A DNA stretch of 64,000 bases from Bacteroidota bacterium (GTDB taxonomy: Bacteria; Bacteroidota; Bacteroidia; Bacteroidales; GCA-2748055): NCBI GenBank assembly GCA_024640885.1, contig JAHEEC010000002.1, positions 1-64,000 of the forward strand, written 5' to 3'. Position numbers and translations under genes: made by a program. The notes beneath the pieces were generated by a model. That model saw only the letters and a program-made list of their open reading frames with translations, was not told the origin of the DNA and did not search any database. Shown in pieces: positions 31,919 through 39,441 of this stretch (position 1 is the first letter of the stretch; each line of letters opens with the position of its first letter).

Positions 31919-32698
31919 TCAACTCCCTTCTCCATGATCCCGGTGATCATCCTTTTTTCGCCCGAGCCTGAAATCACTTCTGACGAAATTTATAAAGTCC
32001 CGGTTCAATCTTCTGCTCTCCTCCCGGGGCATGCTCAGAAAGCGCCTGAGTAACCGGTTGTCGATCAGTTCCGTTACCAGGAACAGCTCACATAATGTAA
32101 TGAACAGATCCTTCAGGTCAAAAGTATAGAATGGTTTGATGGTTATGTAATCCAGTGACCCTCCCCAAACGGCATTGTCAATAAGGTTGGCTGCGAGTCC
32201 GGCCATGAACAGGTGGATAAAACCATTGATCCAGAAGCTGTTTCTTTTCCGTTGTACATAGAAACGCCACATCTCGATAAAAAGCACACCGATCAAACTG
32301 AAAAGGATAATGTTCACAAGGTGGGATCCCTTATTAAAGCCCAGCAGCACCCAGAGGTATGAACCCAGTGTATTTTGAGTGGGCTCTATATAGAATACCG
32401 GTTCGATCAAAGGAACAGAGATGGATTCCCACTGCAGGGAGAAGAGGTAGATCTTGATCGCCTGGTCAATGGCCACTGCAACAAACAGGAAGATCCAGTT
32501 GATCCCTTTCTTTACCCTGAAAAGGCGGTCCAGGGTGGTAGCCACAGCGGCTATCAAACCGAGGAAAAGGGCGGGCAACAGAAAAAATTTCCAGAGGTAT
32601 TCCATGTCTGTCACCTTATGCGCCAGGGCATAAATCACCATCACGACCAGCCAGATCAAAAAAAAGATAGATATATTCCTGAAGTATTTTCGGGCCAT
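31919..32698 (-). CDS. LspA (signal peptidase II)-like membrane protein
   Basis: Start set to MARKYFRN; VAIDQAIKIYLF, AANLIDNAVWGGSLDYI, TFDLKDLFIT resemble LspA blocks with both Asp positions present. Confidence 0.6.
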   Translation of the reverse strand: MARKYFRNISIFFLIWLVVMVIYALAHKVTDMEYLWKFFLLPALFLGLIAAVATTLDRLFRVKKGINWIFLFVAVAIDQAIKIYLFSLQWESISVPLIEPVFYIEPTQNTLGSYLWVLLGFNKGSHLVNIILFSLIGVLFIEMWRFYVQRKRNSFWINGFIHLFMAGLAANLIDNAVWGGSLDYITIKPFYTFDLKDLFITLCELFLVTELIDNRLLRRFLSMPREESRRLNRDFINFVRSDFRLGRKKDDHRDHGEGS

Positions 32699-32785
32699 GG
32701 GAGCAAGGAATCTGTGGGGCGAAAATAGTGAAATTTGGATTAATAAAAATCTTTGCTTTAATTTGATCTTCATTAAGATTGGAGA

Positions 32786-32845
32786 ATGACAACGATTCGC
32801 ACATACTGGTGGTGGCAACTTAATTTCCGAATAGCCGGAGAATAG
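32786..32845 (+). CDS. trpL: Putative trp leader peptide MTTIRTYWWWQLNFRIAGE
   Basis: ATG at 32786, three consecutive TGG codons at 32807-32815, TAG at 32843-32845; lies just upstream of a terminator and trpE. Confidence 0.8.
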   Translation: MTTIRTYWWWQLNFRIAGE

Positions 32846-32872
32846 GTTCAGCCCCATTGTGCGATATGATAC

Positions 32873-32908
32873 AAAAGGCTTCCACTTCGGCGGAAGCCTT
32901 TTTTTTAT
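32873..32908 (+). terminator. Intrinsic terminator/attenuator in the trpE leader
   Basis: AAAAGGCTTCC-acttcggc-GGAAGCCTTTTTTTT. Confidence 0.88.
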
Positions 32909-32958: not shown

Positions 32959-34377
32959 ATGGAAAAAGTACCTGTCACCATTGAACGAAGAAAGATCCTG
33001 GCGGATATCATCACGCCGGTTAGCATCTATTTAAAAGTGAGGGATGTATTCCCAAACGCGCTTTTGCTTGAGAGTTCTGATTATCATAGCAAGGAGAACT
33101 CATTTTCCTTCATATGCATGGATCCAAGGGCCGAGTTCATGGTCTCAGAAGGAGAGGCTACCCTTCAATTGCCGGGTCGTCAACCGGTAAAAACCGCGGT
33201 GACAAAGGAAAATGATGTGGTTCGCCAGTTAAATGAATTCATCTCCGCTTTTGAGATTGACCAGGGGGGTGAAGCAATGATGGTGGATGGGGTTTTCGGA
33301 TACTGCACCTACGATGCGGTCCGGTATTTTGAAGAGATCAGGTTGCACTCAGTGCTTCCGGAAAAAGAGGTGATCCCCGAGGTGCGCTATAATTTTTTCA
33401 GGTTTGTGCTGGCCATCAACCACCTTACCAATGAGCTGACCTTATTCGAAAACATCATCAATGGTGCCGAGAGCGGGATAGACCGGGTAACCACCCTGCT
33501 TCACAACAGAAATATCGCCACCTATGGGTTTGACGTTTCCAGGGATGAGACCTCCAACCTGACCGATGAAGATTTCAGGCAGATGGTGACCAGGGGCAAA
33601 GCACATTGCTTCAGGGGAGACGTGTTCCAGATCGTCCTCTCAAGGCAGTTTAAACAGGAATTTACGGGCGATGAATTTAACGTCTACAGGGCATTGCGAT
33701 CCATTAATCCATCCCCATACCTTTTCTATTTCGATTATGGGAGCTACAGGCTCTTCGGATCGTCTCCCGAATCCCAGATCGAGGTGAAGGGGGGAAAGGC
33801 CTATATCAACCCCATCGCAGGAACCTTCAAGCGTACCGGAAACGATCGAGAGGACCAGGAACTGGCCATGAAGCTTTCCAAGGACGAAAAGGAGAATGCG
33901 GAACATGTGATGCTGGTGGACCTGGCCAGGAATGACCTGAGCCGGACCACACAGAAGGTAACCGTGGAGGATTACAGGGAGATCCATTTTTACTCCCACG
34001 TGATCCATATGGTATCCAAGGTGTCGGGCGAGCTTCCCGAAGATGCGGATACAATCAGGATCATGGCCGAATCATTCCCGGCCGGCACACTTTCAGGTGC
34101 GCCCAAGTACAGGGCCATGGAATTGATCGACCAGTATGAAGGAAAGAGACGGGGCTATTACGGGGGGACCATCGGATTTATCAGGTTCAACGGGGATATT
34201 AACCATGCCATCATGATCCGCTCATTTCTTTCCCGTGACCATACACTCTACTATCAGGCCGGTGCCGGTATTGTATCCGAGTCGACCGAGGAGGGTGAAT
34301 TGCAGGAGGTAAACAACAAGCTTGCGGCATTAAAGTCGGCCATATCAATGGCCAGGAAAATGAACAAAGTTAATTAG
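32959..34377 (+). CDS. trpE: Anthranilate synthase component I
   Basis: Chorismate-binding domain: QIVLSRQF, LFGSSPESQIEV, INPIAGTFKRTG, HVMLVDLARNDL, FPAGTLSGAPKYRAMELI. Confidence 0.96.
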   Translation: MEKVPVTIERRKILADIITPVSIYLKVRDVFPNALLLESSDYHSKENSFSFICMDPRAEFMVSEGEATLQLPGRQPVKTAVTKENDVVRQLNEFISAFEIDQGGEAMMVDGVFGYCTYDAVRYFEEIRLHSVLPEKEVIPEVRYNFFRFVLAINHLTNELTLFENIINGAESGIDRVTTLLHNRNIATYGFDVSRDETSNLTDEDFRQMVTRGKAHCFRGDVFQIVLSRQFKQEFTGDEFNVYRALRSINPSPYLFYFDYGSYRLFGSSPESQIEVKGGKAYINPIAGTFKRTGNDREDQELAMKLSKDEKENAEHVMLVDLARNDLSRTTQKVTVEDYREIHFYSHVIHMVSKVSGELPEDADTIRIMAESFPAGTLSGAPKYRAMELIDQYEGKRRGYYGGTIGFIRFNGDINHAIMIRSFLSRDHTLYYQAGAGIVSESTEEGELQEVNNKLAALKSAISMARKMNKVN

Positions 34378-34378
34378 C

Positions 34379-34957
34379 ATGCAAATGAAAATACTGGTGC
34401 TGGATAATTACGATTCTTTCACATACAACCTGGTTCAGTACATCGAGCGGGTGACGGGCACACCGGTGGATGTCAGGCGGAATGACCAGATTCCCCTGGC
34501 GGATGTGAAAGCCTACGATAAGATACTGATCAGCCCGGGCCCTGGAATTCCCATCGAGGCCGGGATTTCCCTGGACCTGATCAGGGCCTACGGGGCAACC
34601 AAAAGCATCCTGGGTGTTTGCCTCGGCCACCAGGCCATCGCCGAGGCTTATGGTGGATCCATTGTGAACCTGGAAAGGGTCTACCACGGGGTAACGGGAC
34701 AGATGCGGCAGGTAATTCCGGGCGATTACCTTTTTGAGGGGGTCCCGGTGGAATTTGATGCCGGGCGATATCACTCCTGGGTGGTCCAGCGCCATACCCT
34801 TCCTGGCGATCTGGAAGTCACCGTGGAGAATGATGAGGGTTTCATTATGGCCATCAGGCACCGGGCCCATGATGTAAGGGGGGTGCAGTTTCACCCCGAA
34901 TCGGTACTTACAGAATATGGGGGGAAGATGATCCTGAACTGGATTAAAGACCATTAG
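34379..34957 (+). CDS. trpG: Anthranilate synthase component II (glutamine amidotransferase)
   Basis: LDNYDSFTYNLVQY, ISPGPGIP, GVCLGHQAIAEAYGG, VQFHPESVLTEYG. Confidence 0.95.
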   Translation: MQMKILVLDNYDSFTYNLVQYIERVTGTPVDVRRNDQIPLADVKAYDKILISPGPGIPIEAGISLDLIRAYGATKSILGVCLGHQAIAEAYGGSIVNLERVYHGVTGQMRQVIPGDYLFEGVPVEFDAGRYHSWVVQRHTLPGDLEVTVENDEGFIMAIRHRAHDVRGVQFHPESVLTEYGGKMILNWIKDH

Positions 34958-35014
34958 TGGATCACAAAATTTGAATTGGATCACAGGTTGATTTACGCCT
35001 GTAAAAAATAGCTT

Positions 35015-36007
35015 ATGAAAGAGACACTGCAATATTTATTTGACCATAAGACCCTTGGAAAGGAGGATGCCAAACTGATCCTTAGAAATATGGCCGAGGG
35101 CAGGTACAATGATTCTGAGATGGCCGCATTTATCTCTGTCTACCTGATGCGAAGCATCACCGTGGAGGAGTTGACGGGTTTCAGGGATGCCCTGCTGGAA
35201 CTGTGCACACCCGTAGATCTTTCAGAATTTAATGCCATTGATGTATGCGGTACCGGTGGTGATGAAAAGAATACCTTCAATATATCCACACTCACCTCTT
35301 TTGTGGTGGCCGGGGCAGGGGAGAAGGTGGCCAAACATGGCAACTACAGTGTCTCTTCGGCCTGCGGATCATCCAATGTGCTGGAATATTTCGGTTACTC
35401 CTTTTCAAGTGATACAGCGCGGTTAAAAAAAGAGATGGACCGGTATAATATTTGTTTCTTGCATGCCCCCCTATTTAACCCGGCCATGAAAAATGTGGCA
35501 CCTGTTCGCAGGAGCCTCCGGATCAAGACATTTTTCAATATGCTTGGCCCAATGGTAAATCCCTCCAACCCTGCCAATCAACTTGTAGGCGTGTTCAGCC
35601 TTGATGTGGCCAGGTTGTATCACTACCTTTACCAGGAATCGGACAAACAATATTGTATTATCCACTCGCTGGACGGGTATGACGAGATTTCACTCACCGG
35701 GGGATTCAGGGCCCTTACCCGTCAGACCGAAAGAACCTATATGCCGTCTGACATGGGACTTGACCGGGTATCTCCCCGGGAGATTTTTGGCGGCAACACC
35801 GTGGAGGAGGCTTCGGATGTCTTCCTGAAGATCCTGGAAGGGAAGGGGACCCGGGCCCAGAATGATGTGGTGGTGGCAAACGCAGCCATGGCCCTCAATT
35901 GTATGGATGAAACCAGGGGGATCGAAACGTGCATGGACCGTGCCAGGCAATCCCTGGTCTCGGGATCTGCGTTGAAAAAATTTAAAAACCTGGTAAGCAA
36001 TAAGTAG
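35015..36007 (+). CDS. trpD: Anthranilate phosphoribosyltransferase
   Basis: DVCGTGGDEKNTFNIST, KHGNYSVSSACGSSNVLEYFG, LGPMVNPSNPANQLVGVF. Confidence 0.96.
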   Translation: MKETLQYLFDHKTLGKEDAKLILRNMAEGRYNDSEMAAFISVYLMRSITVEELTGFRDALLELCTPVDLSEFNAIDVCGTGGDEKNTFNISTLTSFVVAGAGEKVAKHGNYSVSSACGSSNVLEYFGYSFSSDTARLKKEMDRYNICFLHAPLFNPAMKNVAPVRRSLRIKTFFNMLGPMVNPSNPANQLVGVFSLDVARLYHYLYQESDKQYCIIHSLDGYDEISLTGGFRALTRQTERTYMPSDMGLDRVSPREIFGGNTVEEASDVFLKILEGKGTRAQNDVVVANAAMALNCMDETRGIETCMDRARQSLVSGSALKKFKNLVSNK

Positions 36008-36008
36008 G

Positions 36009-36788
36009 ATGAATATACTGGATACCATTGTGGAACACAAGCGGGTAGAGGTGCTGAAACGAAAGCAGAAAAGACCCATTACAAACCTTGAAACATTCCC
36101 CTTTTATGGAAGAAAGAGCAATGTGGTTGACCGGGGGATCCTGAATGAGAGGCCTGGGATCATTGCTGAATTCAAGCGAAAATCTCCATCCCGTGGAGAG
36201 ATAAATATGAATGCAGACCCTGTGCAGGTGGCCGGTGCATACCAGCAGGCCGGGGTCTCGGCTATGAGCATTCTTACCGACCGGGATTTTTTTGGAGGAT
36301 CGTTTACCGACCTGCAACGGGTGAGGGAATCTTATCCCGGCCTGGTCCTGTTGAGAAAGGATTTTATTATAGAGGCATACCAGCTTCATGAAGCAAGGGC
36401 TTACGGGGCCGACATGGTCCTGTTGATCGCAGCAATCCTGGAAAAGAGTGAGGTCGCCGAGCTGGCGCTGGAAGCAGAATCACTGGGCCTGGGAGTGCTA
36501 TTCGAGGTCCACAGCGAGGAGGAACTTGAAAAATTCCACCCCTCCATTGGATTTGTCGGTGTTAACAACAGGGATCTGAAAACCTTTCAGGTGGATACTG
36601 AACGGAGCATGGCCCTTGTTGGCCGGATGCCCGGGGGGATTATTCCTGTATCTGAAAGCGGGCTGGGTAACGCCCGGGAAATTAGAAGGTTGTGGAAAGC
36701 AGGTTTCAGGCTTTTCCTGATGGGAGAATCATTTATGAAGGAGGAGGATCCCGGCAGGGCCTGTGGAAAATTCATGGAGAAGCTGTAA
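36009..36788 (+). CDS. trpC: Indole-3-glycerol phosphate synthase
   Basis: IIAEFKRKSPSRG, SILTDRDFFGGS, LLRKDFIIEAYQ, VGVNNRDLKTFQVD, SESGL. Confidence 0.96.
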   Translation: MNILDTIVEHKRVEVLKRKQKRPITNLETFPFYGRKSNVVDRGILNERPGIIAEFKRKSPSRGEINMNADPVQVAGAYQQAGVSAMSILTDRDFFGGSFTDLQRVRESYPGLVLLRKDFIIEAYQLHEARAYGADMVLLIAAILEKSEVAELALEAESLGLGVLFEVHSEEELEKFHPSIGFVGVNNRDLKTFQVDTERSMALVGRMPGGIIPVSESGLGNAREIRRLWKAGFRLFLMGESFMKEEDPGRACGKFMEKL

Positions 36789-36812
36789 TGGCTGCTGGAA
36801 AATGAAATAGAA

Positions 36813-37475
36813 GTGGAGCAATCATTGAAAATAAAGGTGTGCGGCCTGCTTTTTCCGGGAAACATTGAAGAGGTGTGTGCCCTTGAGCCCGATTTTGCCG
36901 GATATATATTTTACCCCGGCTCCGGGCGGTATGTGGGAAAGAGGCCCGATCCCTCCATTTTCAGCATCCCCGGAAAGTCCACCCTGAAGGTGGGTGTCTT
37001 TGTCAATGAGGAGATCGGAAGCCTGATAAAGATCTTTGAAATGTTCCGGCTGGACCTGGTGCAATTGCATGGTTCAGAATCCCCGGGATATTGCATGGCC
37101 CTGAAAGAGGCAGGAATACGGGTGATCAGGTCCGTTAATCCTGAGACCGCGGGACATGACCCTGGACCCGGGGACCATTGGGATGGGGTAAATTACCTTC
37201 TTTTTGATACTCCCGGGCCCGGATTCGGGGGCACGGGCCGCAAGTTTGAGTGGAAATTGCTGGAGGGGCTCCACATTCCGATTCCATTTCTGCTTGGAGG
37301 AGGGATTGGCCCGGGTGATGCGGAGGCCATCCGGCAGGTGAGTCACGGAAAATTATTGGGGGTGGACGTAAACAGCAGGTTTGAGTTGTCACCGGGTCTT
37401 AAAGATGCGGGCCTGCTTGGGAAATTTATTGCTGAAATAAGGAGATCACACATAGGATTAATCGAAGAGACATGA
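36813..37475 (+). CDS. trpF: Phosphoribosylanthranilate isomerase
   Basis: [52 protein letters not shown] start at 36813. Confidence 0.93.
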
Positions 37476-38653
37476 GTTTTGAAGTCGATCAGAAAGGATT
37501 TTACGGGGAATTTGGAGGGGCATATGTCCCGGAAATGCTCTATCCTAACATCAAAGAACTGGAAGAGAATTACCTGAAAATCATTGAATCGGAACAGTTC
37601 AATAATGATTTCAGGATGCTGCTGAAGGATTATGCAGGCCGGCCCACCCCTTTGTTCAGGGCCCAACGCCTGTCGGAGCATTTTGGAACGAACATCTACC
37701 TCAAGAGGGAGGACCTGAATCACACCGGGGCCCATAAAATCAACAACACCATCGGGCAGATCCTGGTGGCCAGACACCTGGGAAAGAGAAGGATCATTGC
37801 AGAAACGGGAGCCGGGCAGCATGGCGTGGCCACTGCCACAGTATGTGCCCTGATGGGGCTGGAATGCATCGTTTACATGGGTGCGTTGGATGTGGAACGG
37901 CAATCGCCCAATGTGAAAAAGATGAAAATGCTGGGGGCCGAGGTGATTGCCGTTCACAGCGGTAACAAAACCCTGAAGGATGCCACCAATGAAGCAATCC
38001 GCGACTGGATCAATCATCCTGTGGAGACCCATTATATCATCGGCTCTGTGGTGGGCCCGCACCCCTATCCTGATATGGTGACCCGTTTTCAGTCGGTGAT
38101 CTCCGAGGAGATCAAGGTCCAGCTTGCCGAAAGGACGGGACGGGACTATCCCGATTACCTGGTCGCATGTGTGGGGGGCGGAAGCAACGCTGCCGGGGCC
38201 TATTATCATTACCTGGCCGATGAAAGGGTACGCCTTATCTCTGCAGAGGCAGCAGGAAAGGGCCTTGAGAGCGGCATGACCGCTGCCACTTCCCTGCTGG
38301 GAAGATCCGGGATCATCCATGGAAGCAGGACCCTGTTGATGCAGGATGAGGACGGACAGATCACTGAACCCTATTCAATTTCAGCAGGGCTGGATTATCC
38401 CGGGGTGGGGCCGCTCCATGCATGGCTTGCAAAGACGGGCCGGGCAACTGTGTATGCTGCCACCGATGAGGAAGCCCTGCAGGCCGCATTGCTCTGCACC
38501 CGGAAAGAGGGTATCATCCCTGCCCTTGAGACGGCCCATGCCCTGGCCGTCCTCGAAAAAATCGAACCGGGGAGGGAGGAAAATGTGGTGGTCAATCTTT
38601 CGGGAAGGGGTGACAAGGATATGGAAACCTATATCGATAAACTTGGTTTATAG
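37472..38653 (+). CDS. trpB: Tryptophan synthase beta subunit
   Basis: [57 protein letters not shown]. Confidence 0.97.
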
Positions 38654-38664
38654 GAGGCACAGCA

Positions 38665-39441
38665 ATGAACAGAATTGATCAGTTATTCATTGAGAATTCA
38701 AAGGAGATCCTCTCCGTCTATCTCACGGCCGGTTTCCCTGGCCTGAATGATACCCCCGCCCTGTTGAGGGCCTTGCAGGACAACGGATGCGATATGGTTG
38801 AGATCGGGATCCCATTTTCAGACCCACTGGCCGATGGGCCTGTCATTCAGCAAAGCAGCCACCAGGCCCTGGAGAACGGGATGAATCTGAAACTGCTTTT
38901 CAGCCAGCTTGCAGGGATCCGGGCCACGGTCAGGATTCCCCTGGTGATGATGGGTTACCTCAATCCGGTGCTGCAGATGGGGATGGAACCATTCCTGGAG
39001 AATTGCCGCAACGTAGGGGTCGATGGTGTGATCATTCCGGATTTGCCTCCCGATGAATATGAGACCCGTTACCATGGAATGTTCCGGGAATACGGGATAT
39101 TCAATATCCTTTTAATTACCCCGCAAACCGGAGACCAGCGCATCCGCAAGATCGCCGGGCTCTCACAGGGTTTCATATATATGGTGGCCGATGCATCAAC
39201 TACAGGAACGAAATCGGCTATTGGTCAGCACCAGGTTTCATACTTCCGGCGCATCAAAGAGATGGAACTGCCCAGGCCCGCTTTGATAGGATTCGGTATT
39301 TCCAGCCATGAGACATTCATGACCGCTTGTGGGCATGCCAGGGGGGGGATTATCGGAAGCGCATTTATCAAGGCCATTGGGGGACCCGGGTCACTTGAGA
39401 ATAAAGTTAAGGATTTTATCCGGTCGGTTCGAATGGGGTGA
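38665..39441 (+). CDS. trpA: Tryptophan synthase alpha subunit
   Basis: DMVEIGIPFSDPLADGPVIQQSS, GVIIPDLPPDEY, IGFGISSHE. Confidence 0.96.
   Translation: MNRIDQLFIENSKEILSVYLTAGFPGLNDTPALLRALQDNGCDMVEIGIPFSDPLADGPVIQQSSHQALENGMNLKLLFSQLAGIRATVRIPLVMMGYLNPVLQMGMEPFLENCRNVGVDGVIIPDLPPDEYETRYHGMFREYGIFNILLITPQTGDQRIRKIAGLSQGFIYMVADASTTGTKSAIGQHQVSYFRRIKEMELPRPALIGFGISSHETFMTACGHARGGIIGSAFIKAIGGPGSLENKVKDFIRSVRMG

Follow-up and report, generated by a model that had tools for sequence, protein, structure and literature searches.

The trp operon in the window, the 64,000-nucleotide stretch of DNA analysed here, is preceded by an intergenic region with a tryptophan-rich open reading frame (ORF) and a hairpin. 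This raises the question of whether the region controls transcription of the operon and by what means the supply of tryptophan would be sensed. The best explanation, which we hold to be highly probable, is a ribosome-mediated transcription attenuator of trpEGDCFBA of the E. coli trp type. The features on which this model is built are the following.

31919..32698, minus strand: divergent gene, a relative of signal peptidase II (Peptidase_A8)
32734..32765, plus strand: candidate Bacteroidota-type promoter found by pattern match, with TTTG at 32734-32737, a 20-nt spacer and TTAATTTG at 32758-32765 (one base off TAnnTTTG)
32786..32845, plus strand: leader peptide ORF of 19 codons, ATG at 32786, stop codon TAG at 32843-32845, translation MTTIRTYWWWQLNFRIAGE
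32807..32815, plus strand: three consecutive Trp codons (TGG), the putative sensor, read from the sequence and invariant in 13 distinct genus-level leaders
32873..32883, plus strand: segment 3, the 5' arm of the terminator
32892..32908, plus strand: segment 4, the 3' arm of the terminator (32892-32902) and the T-run (T to 32906)
32959..39441, plus strand: controlled operon, assigned by family profiles, with trpE (32959), trpG (34379), trpD (35015), trpC (36009), trpF (36813), trpB (37472) and trpA (38665-39441)

The 19-codon ORF with three Trp codons in a row matches the preliminary description base for base, and the terminator arms at 32873-32883 and 32892-32902, followed by a T-run, are borne out by sequence and folding. 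This intrinsic terminator is a strong hairpin with C(UUCG)G inside its loop and the T-run directly next to it. It starts 27 nt past the leader stop codon and ends about 50 nt before trpE. Leader and terminator together sit between the divergent signal-peptidase-II-like gene and trpE, and the leader RNA of 136 nt has a folding z of -4.9 relative to shuffles. The gene order trpEGDCFBA, which had been read from the sequence alone, is confirmed by family profiles. Here, trpE, trpG and trpF were recognised by their best families while the strict equivalog cut-offs were not reached for every model, as is common in a distant lineage. The mechanically derived ORF of the divergent gene reaches 32944 on the minus strand and would thus run antisense through the attenuator; this is probably not the real start of that gene.

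By chance, 1.7 occurrences of the promoter pattern would be expected per window, and the match taken by itself does not exceed this level. For this reason, the candidate promoter rests on its position and on similar sequence at this position in members of the genus, one of which (L010) carries a perfect TATCTTTG. A sigma-70 promoter was left aside because Bacteroidota promoters differ. Taking the spacing of 4-5 nt between promoter and transcription start site in F. johnsoniae (PMC6847099), transcription is predicted to start near 32770.

In addition to the terminator arms, three regions take part in the proposed switch, all of them placed with the help of folding or complementarity.

32797..32816, plus strand: segment 1, the Trp-codon region that pairs with 32851-32864 in ribosome-free RNA according to folding, corresponding to a helix in the RF01692 model
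32824..32840, plus strand: upstream strand of the antiterminator extension, 32824-32828 with 32892-32896 and 32834-32840 (GCCGGAG) with 32885-32891 (CUUCGGC)
32845..32864, plus strand: segment 2, of which, according to folding, 32850-32853 pairs with 32877-32880 (antiterminator) or 32851-32857 with the Trp codons

In the proposed mechanism, the polymerase would make the leader RNA with a ribosome trailing on the 19-codon ORF. If charged tRNA-Trp is scarce, the ribosome would stall on the Trp codons at 32807-32815, and segment 2 (32850-32853) would be freed. It could then pair with 32877-32880 in the 5' arm of the terminator the moment that arm has been transcribed and before the 3' arm exists. 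The helix would subsequently zip up through GCCGGAG:CUUCGGC and UUUCC:GGAAG, and the polymerase would continue into trpE. If tryptophan is plentiful, a ribosome at the stop codon would cover segment 2 and GCCGGAG, allowing the terminator to form. The terminator would also form on an untranslated leader, with segment 2 held by the Trp-codon region. The switch should therefore allow the trp genes to be read only under tryptophan scarcity. We infer the transcription start, the translation of the leader, the coupling of ribosome and polymerase and the dependence on tryptophan; coupling in Bacteroidota enters the model as an assumption.

Folding was calculated for successive lengths of the nascent transcript, with the ribosome fixed at a given position and assumed to cover about 15 nt to each side. 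In the calculated free RNA, 32797-32816 pairs with 32851-32864, the antiterminator has a probability of 0.00 at every step, and the terminator forms. With a ribosome placed at the stop codon, where it covers 32828-32857, the calculated probability is likewise 0.00 at every step and the terminator again forms. With the ribosome on the Trp codons, the calculated pairing of 32850-32853 with 32877-32880 reaches a probability of 1.00 from the point at which the polymerase is at 32884, and the loop pairing GCCGGAG:CUUCGGC reaches 0.95-0.99 from 32891 through 32897. In these calculations, the antiterminator is thus exclusive with the terminator and forms only with a ribosome stalled at the Trp codons. 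The terminator is predicted to become the better structure only once 32900 has been transcribed, and in the full-length RNA at equilibrium it is always the favoured structure. Therefore, antitermination must be kinetic, a matter of timing, as in E. coli.

The folding with masked ribosome positions supports a four-segment switch and with it the logic of classical trp attenuation put forward in the preliminary description. The antiterminator given there needs to be amended. Its pairings of 32824-32828 with 32892-32896 and of 32834-32840 with 32885-32891 are real, with 94-95% of cells over the 13 genus-level leaders retaining them, but they make up only part of the antiterminator. The decisive and earlier-forming part, 32850-32853 with 32877-32880, had been missed, and the pairing of the loop and the 3' arm is an extension of that helix.

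All distinct leaders found among genus members with upstream DNA (13) keep the three Trp codons, the stop codon and the terminator at nearly fixed spacing, and the CGGAG segment, the stop region and the terminator have invariant cores. Loss of the Trp codons or of the pairings in relatives had been named beforehand as an argument against attenuation; both are conserved. In per-member folding, all 13 leaders show the same switch direction at the first step, with the polymerase at the loop. The margins are small in L013 and L048, the direction is lost at later steps in L010 and L013, and the genus member L013/L049 shows no switch in a simple test. Within the genus, the antiterminator shows only weak covariation in the alignment, with three pairs changed on both sides, a number reached by 52 of 500 shuffles, and the Trp-codon helix likewise shows only weak covariation. 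This is due to the similarity of the sequences. Covariation within the genus was therefore dropped as a proof of the antiterminator since there is too little divergence, and complementarity and switch tests over dereplicated leaders were used instead.

The conservation of the RNA also bears on the possibility that the leader acts on the translation of trpE, or encodes a tryptophan-induced arrest peptide similar to TnaC, with the hairpin being only secondary. The strong structure of the leader RNA would fit such a role, but the hairpin, together with its T-run, makes up a canonical terminator that lies about 50 nt clear of trpE. Furthermore, the peptide shows little conservation apart from the Trp run. 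Two genus members, L010 and L012, have each lost one base at different alignment columns. The altered frames give the peptide ends ...RPEHR and ...NPEYR, but both leaders retain the pairing segment CCGGAG intact. These deletions suggest that selection acts on the RNA and not on the end of the peptide, which is contrary to a specific nascent-peptide signal. We consider control through translation or peptide arrest very improbable.

A further alternative is attenuation by a protein similar to TRAP or directly by uncharged tRNA in the manner of a T-box, without a translating ribosome. Such mechanisms control trp operons in Firmicutes. Neither TRAP (PF02081) nor TrpR (PF01371) was found in the genome, which is 98% complete in 276 contigs with an estimated contamination of 7%, its operon and leader matching genus relatives throughout. 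No T-box or other Rfam family reached its cut-off in the window, and the T-box is absent from the permissive list of matches as well. What is conserved is an ORF that can be translated, carries Trp codons in frame and has a rightly placed stop codon, and this argues for a translating ribosome, leaving only a slight probability, smaller still than that of an arrest peptide, to a TRAP- or T-box-like control. The permissive Rfam scan also listed RsaE and ctRNA_p42d, which were rejected as their scores are driven by the terminator hairpin and lie far under the cut-offs.

The ribosome-mediated model can also be judged by how often its layout recurs. For this, a strict automatic test required a short ORF with TGGTGG and a terminator 8-65 nt past its stop codon. 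Applied to both strands of the whole window, it returned a single site, the leader before trpE. The arrangement was found in none of 1,260 shuffled trpE upstream regions and in none of 63 reverse strands of these regions. A separate pattern search for further Trp leaders in the same genome yielded nothing beyond chance matches that look like coding sequence; as its spacing limits excluded even the known site, its outcome is uninformative. In the phylum sample, an even draw of trpE upstream regions, 39 of the 44 other regions from Bacteroidia passed the strict test. Inspection by eye shows a Trp leader in the remaining five as well, with Trp-Leu-Trp in two and, in the other three, Trp-Trp-Trp and a terminator that the detector did not accept, which brings the count to 44 of 44. 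From other classes of the phylum, 14 of 20 regions pass, and the rest are without a clear leader. In some members of the order (L141-L143), the leader precedes trpB instead of trpE. That the hairpin is a plain intrinsic terminator ending some other transcript, next to a chance Trp-rich ORF, is very unlikely and as improbable as control by TRAP or a T-box: terminators are indeed frequent between genes and a 19-codon ORF is short, but the upstream gene (31919-32698, minus strand) points away and leaves no upstream transcript to end, and conservation already tells against it since shuffles never yield the combination of ORF and terminator that recurs throughout the phylum before trpE or trpB.

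The 100 distinct leaders were dereplicated to 59 clusters. The end of the leader is complementary to its own terminator above the level of shuffled leaders (Fisher p = 2.7e-11), and this complementarity ranks high in comparison with the terminators of other leaders (p = 1e-9), both over the 59 dereplicated leaders, which still share deep ancestry, so these p-values and the one given next serve as guides. The switch score counts the pairs of the unfinished terminator with upstream RNA when the ribosome is on the Trp codons, minus the larger of the values for the stop-codon and the free states. Its mean over the 59 leaders was +2.5 bp compared to -1.3 bp for shuffles (Wilcoxon p = 2e-10). The leader of the window scored +3.4 compared to -1.2 and was matched by none of 25 shuffles. 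No switch is shown by L049 from the genus and by several leaders from other classes, some of them GC-rich.

Several variants were observed among the sampled loci. Among the loci L118-L136 from classes outside Bacteroidia, the leaders with Trp codons and terminators have longer peptides and hairpins that are often GC-rich. The two Trp-Leu-Trp leaders, L059 and L077, have their Trp codons split by Leu (about MINNIHTWLWQGN...) ahead of a terminator; they are near-identical and come from two genomes of one family. Tandem Trp leaders precede a single trpE in L117 (the same site as L097; G231 contig C131, minus strand, about 1130-900), where MNTNRLNNYWWWQFTYSFYREEGKLS with its own terminator is followed by MNNSNLHIWWWHNSGIKP with a second terminator. 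Such attenuators in series would give a sharper response. In L138 (G022 contig C232) and L145 (G237 contig C9), a Trp leader and a terminator stand before a TrpB-like gene (TrpB2, NF009057) that is not part of a trp operon, which suggests that a second tryptophan synthase beta gene is under attenuation there.

These results resolve the predicted switch of a whole biosynthetic operon down to single base pairs. Classical attenuation requires a ribosome close behind the RNA polymerase, and the near-universal Trp leaders make the coupling of the two directly testable in Bacteroidota. The mRNAs of this phylum lack Shine-Dalgarno sequences (PMC6847099). On balance, we give an even chance to the wider proposition that ribosome-mediated trp attenuation is ancestral and near-universal in Bacteroidota and that its RNA changes too rapidly for current RNA-family models to detect the majority of copies. 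If so, ribosome and polymerase would have to be closely coupled in a phylum whose translation makes no use of Shine-Dalgarno signals.

In Flavobacterium psychrophilum, attenuators with leader peptides have been predicted for amino-acid operons from transcriptome data (PMC9723704; PMC6414381), with Bacteroid-trp noted upstream of its trp operon (PMC6414381). The proposal of leader-peptide attenuation and the phylum are shared with the locus described here, and the mechanism is predicted in both, whereas lineage and operon context differ. A search of the open-access literature, with subscription papers outside its range, found no experimental test of trp attenuation in Bacteroidota.

The E. coli trp leader (TrpL, RF00513) likewise has a Trp-codon segment, a segment common to the pause helix and the antiterminator, and a terminator, and there too the shared segment is masked once the ribosome has moved on to the stop codon. 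It differs in having two Trp codons instead of three, and the genome of the window has no detected TrpR. Rfam scans of the window, both at the cut-off and permissive, gave no RF00513 match. The attenuator of the window would work like that of E. coli, which does not imply shared ancestry.

The closest known system is Bacteroid-trp (RF01692), a leader in Bacteroidetes published in 2010 by Weinberg et al. (PMC2864571). The leader is not of an undescribed kind; RF01692 covers it, and the copy in the window simply scores below the cut-off. The model matches the window with 26.5 bits (E-value 0.39), short of the cut-off of 49 bits, in an end-to-end and in-register alignment to 32763-32884. In the relatives G008, G013, G021 and G023, the site that the model picks out is the one before trpE. 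Of the loci tested, the cut-off is reached by none of 16 from the window's family and by 15 of the 40 sampled elsewhere in Bacteroidia. At the homologous site, scores are graded from 26-38 bits in the window's family up to 88 in other families, a gradation that supports a possible common descent with accepted Bacteroid-trp members. With a Trp leader in every sampled Bacteroidia region before trpE, the Bacteroid-trp family is far wider than the Rfam cut-off suggests. The leader of the window and Bacteroid-trp occur in the same phylum upstream of trp genes, here directly before trpE of trpEGDCFBA, and both have a short ORF with Trp codons and a helix between the Trp-codon region and downstream sequence, of which most pairs are conserved and part of the inner helix is not. 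The RF01692 model is without the 3' arm of the terminator; the antiterminator is described here. The leader of the window is therefore a real, divergent member of the already known Bacteroid-trp kind.
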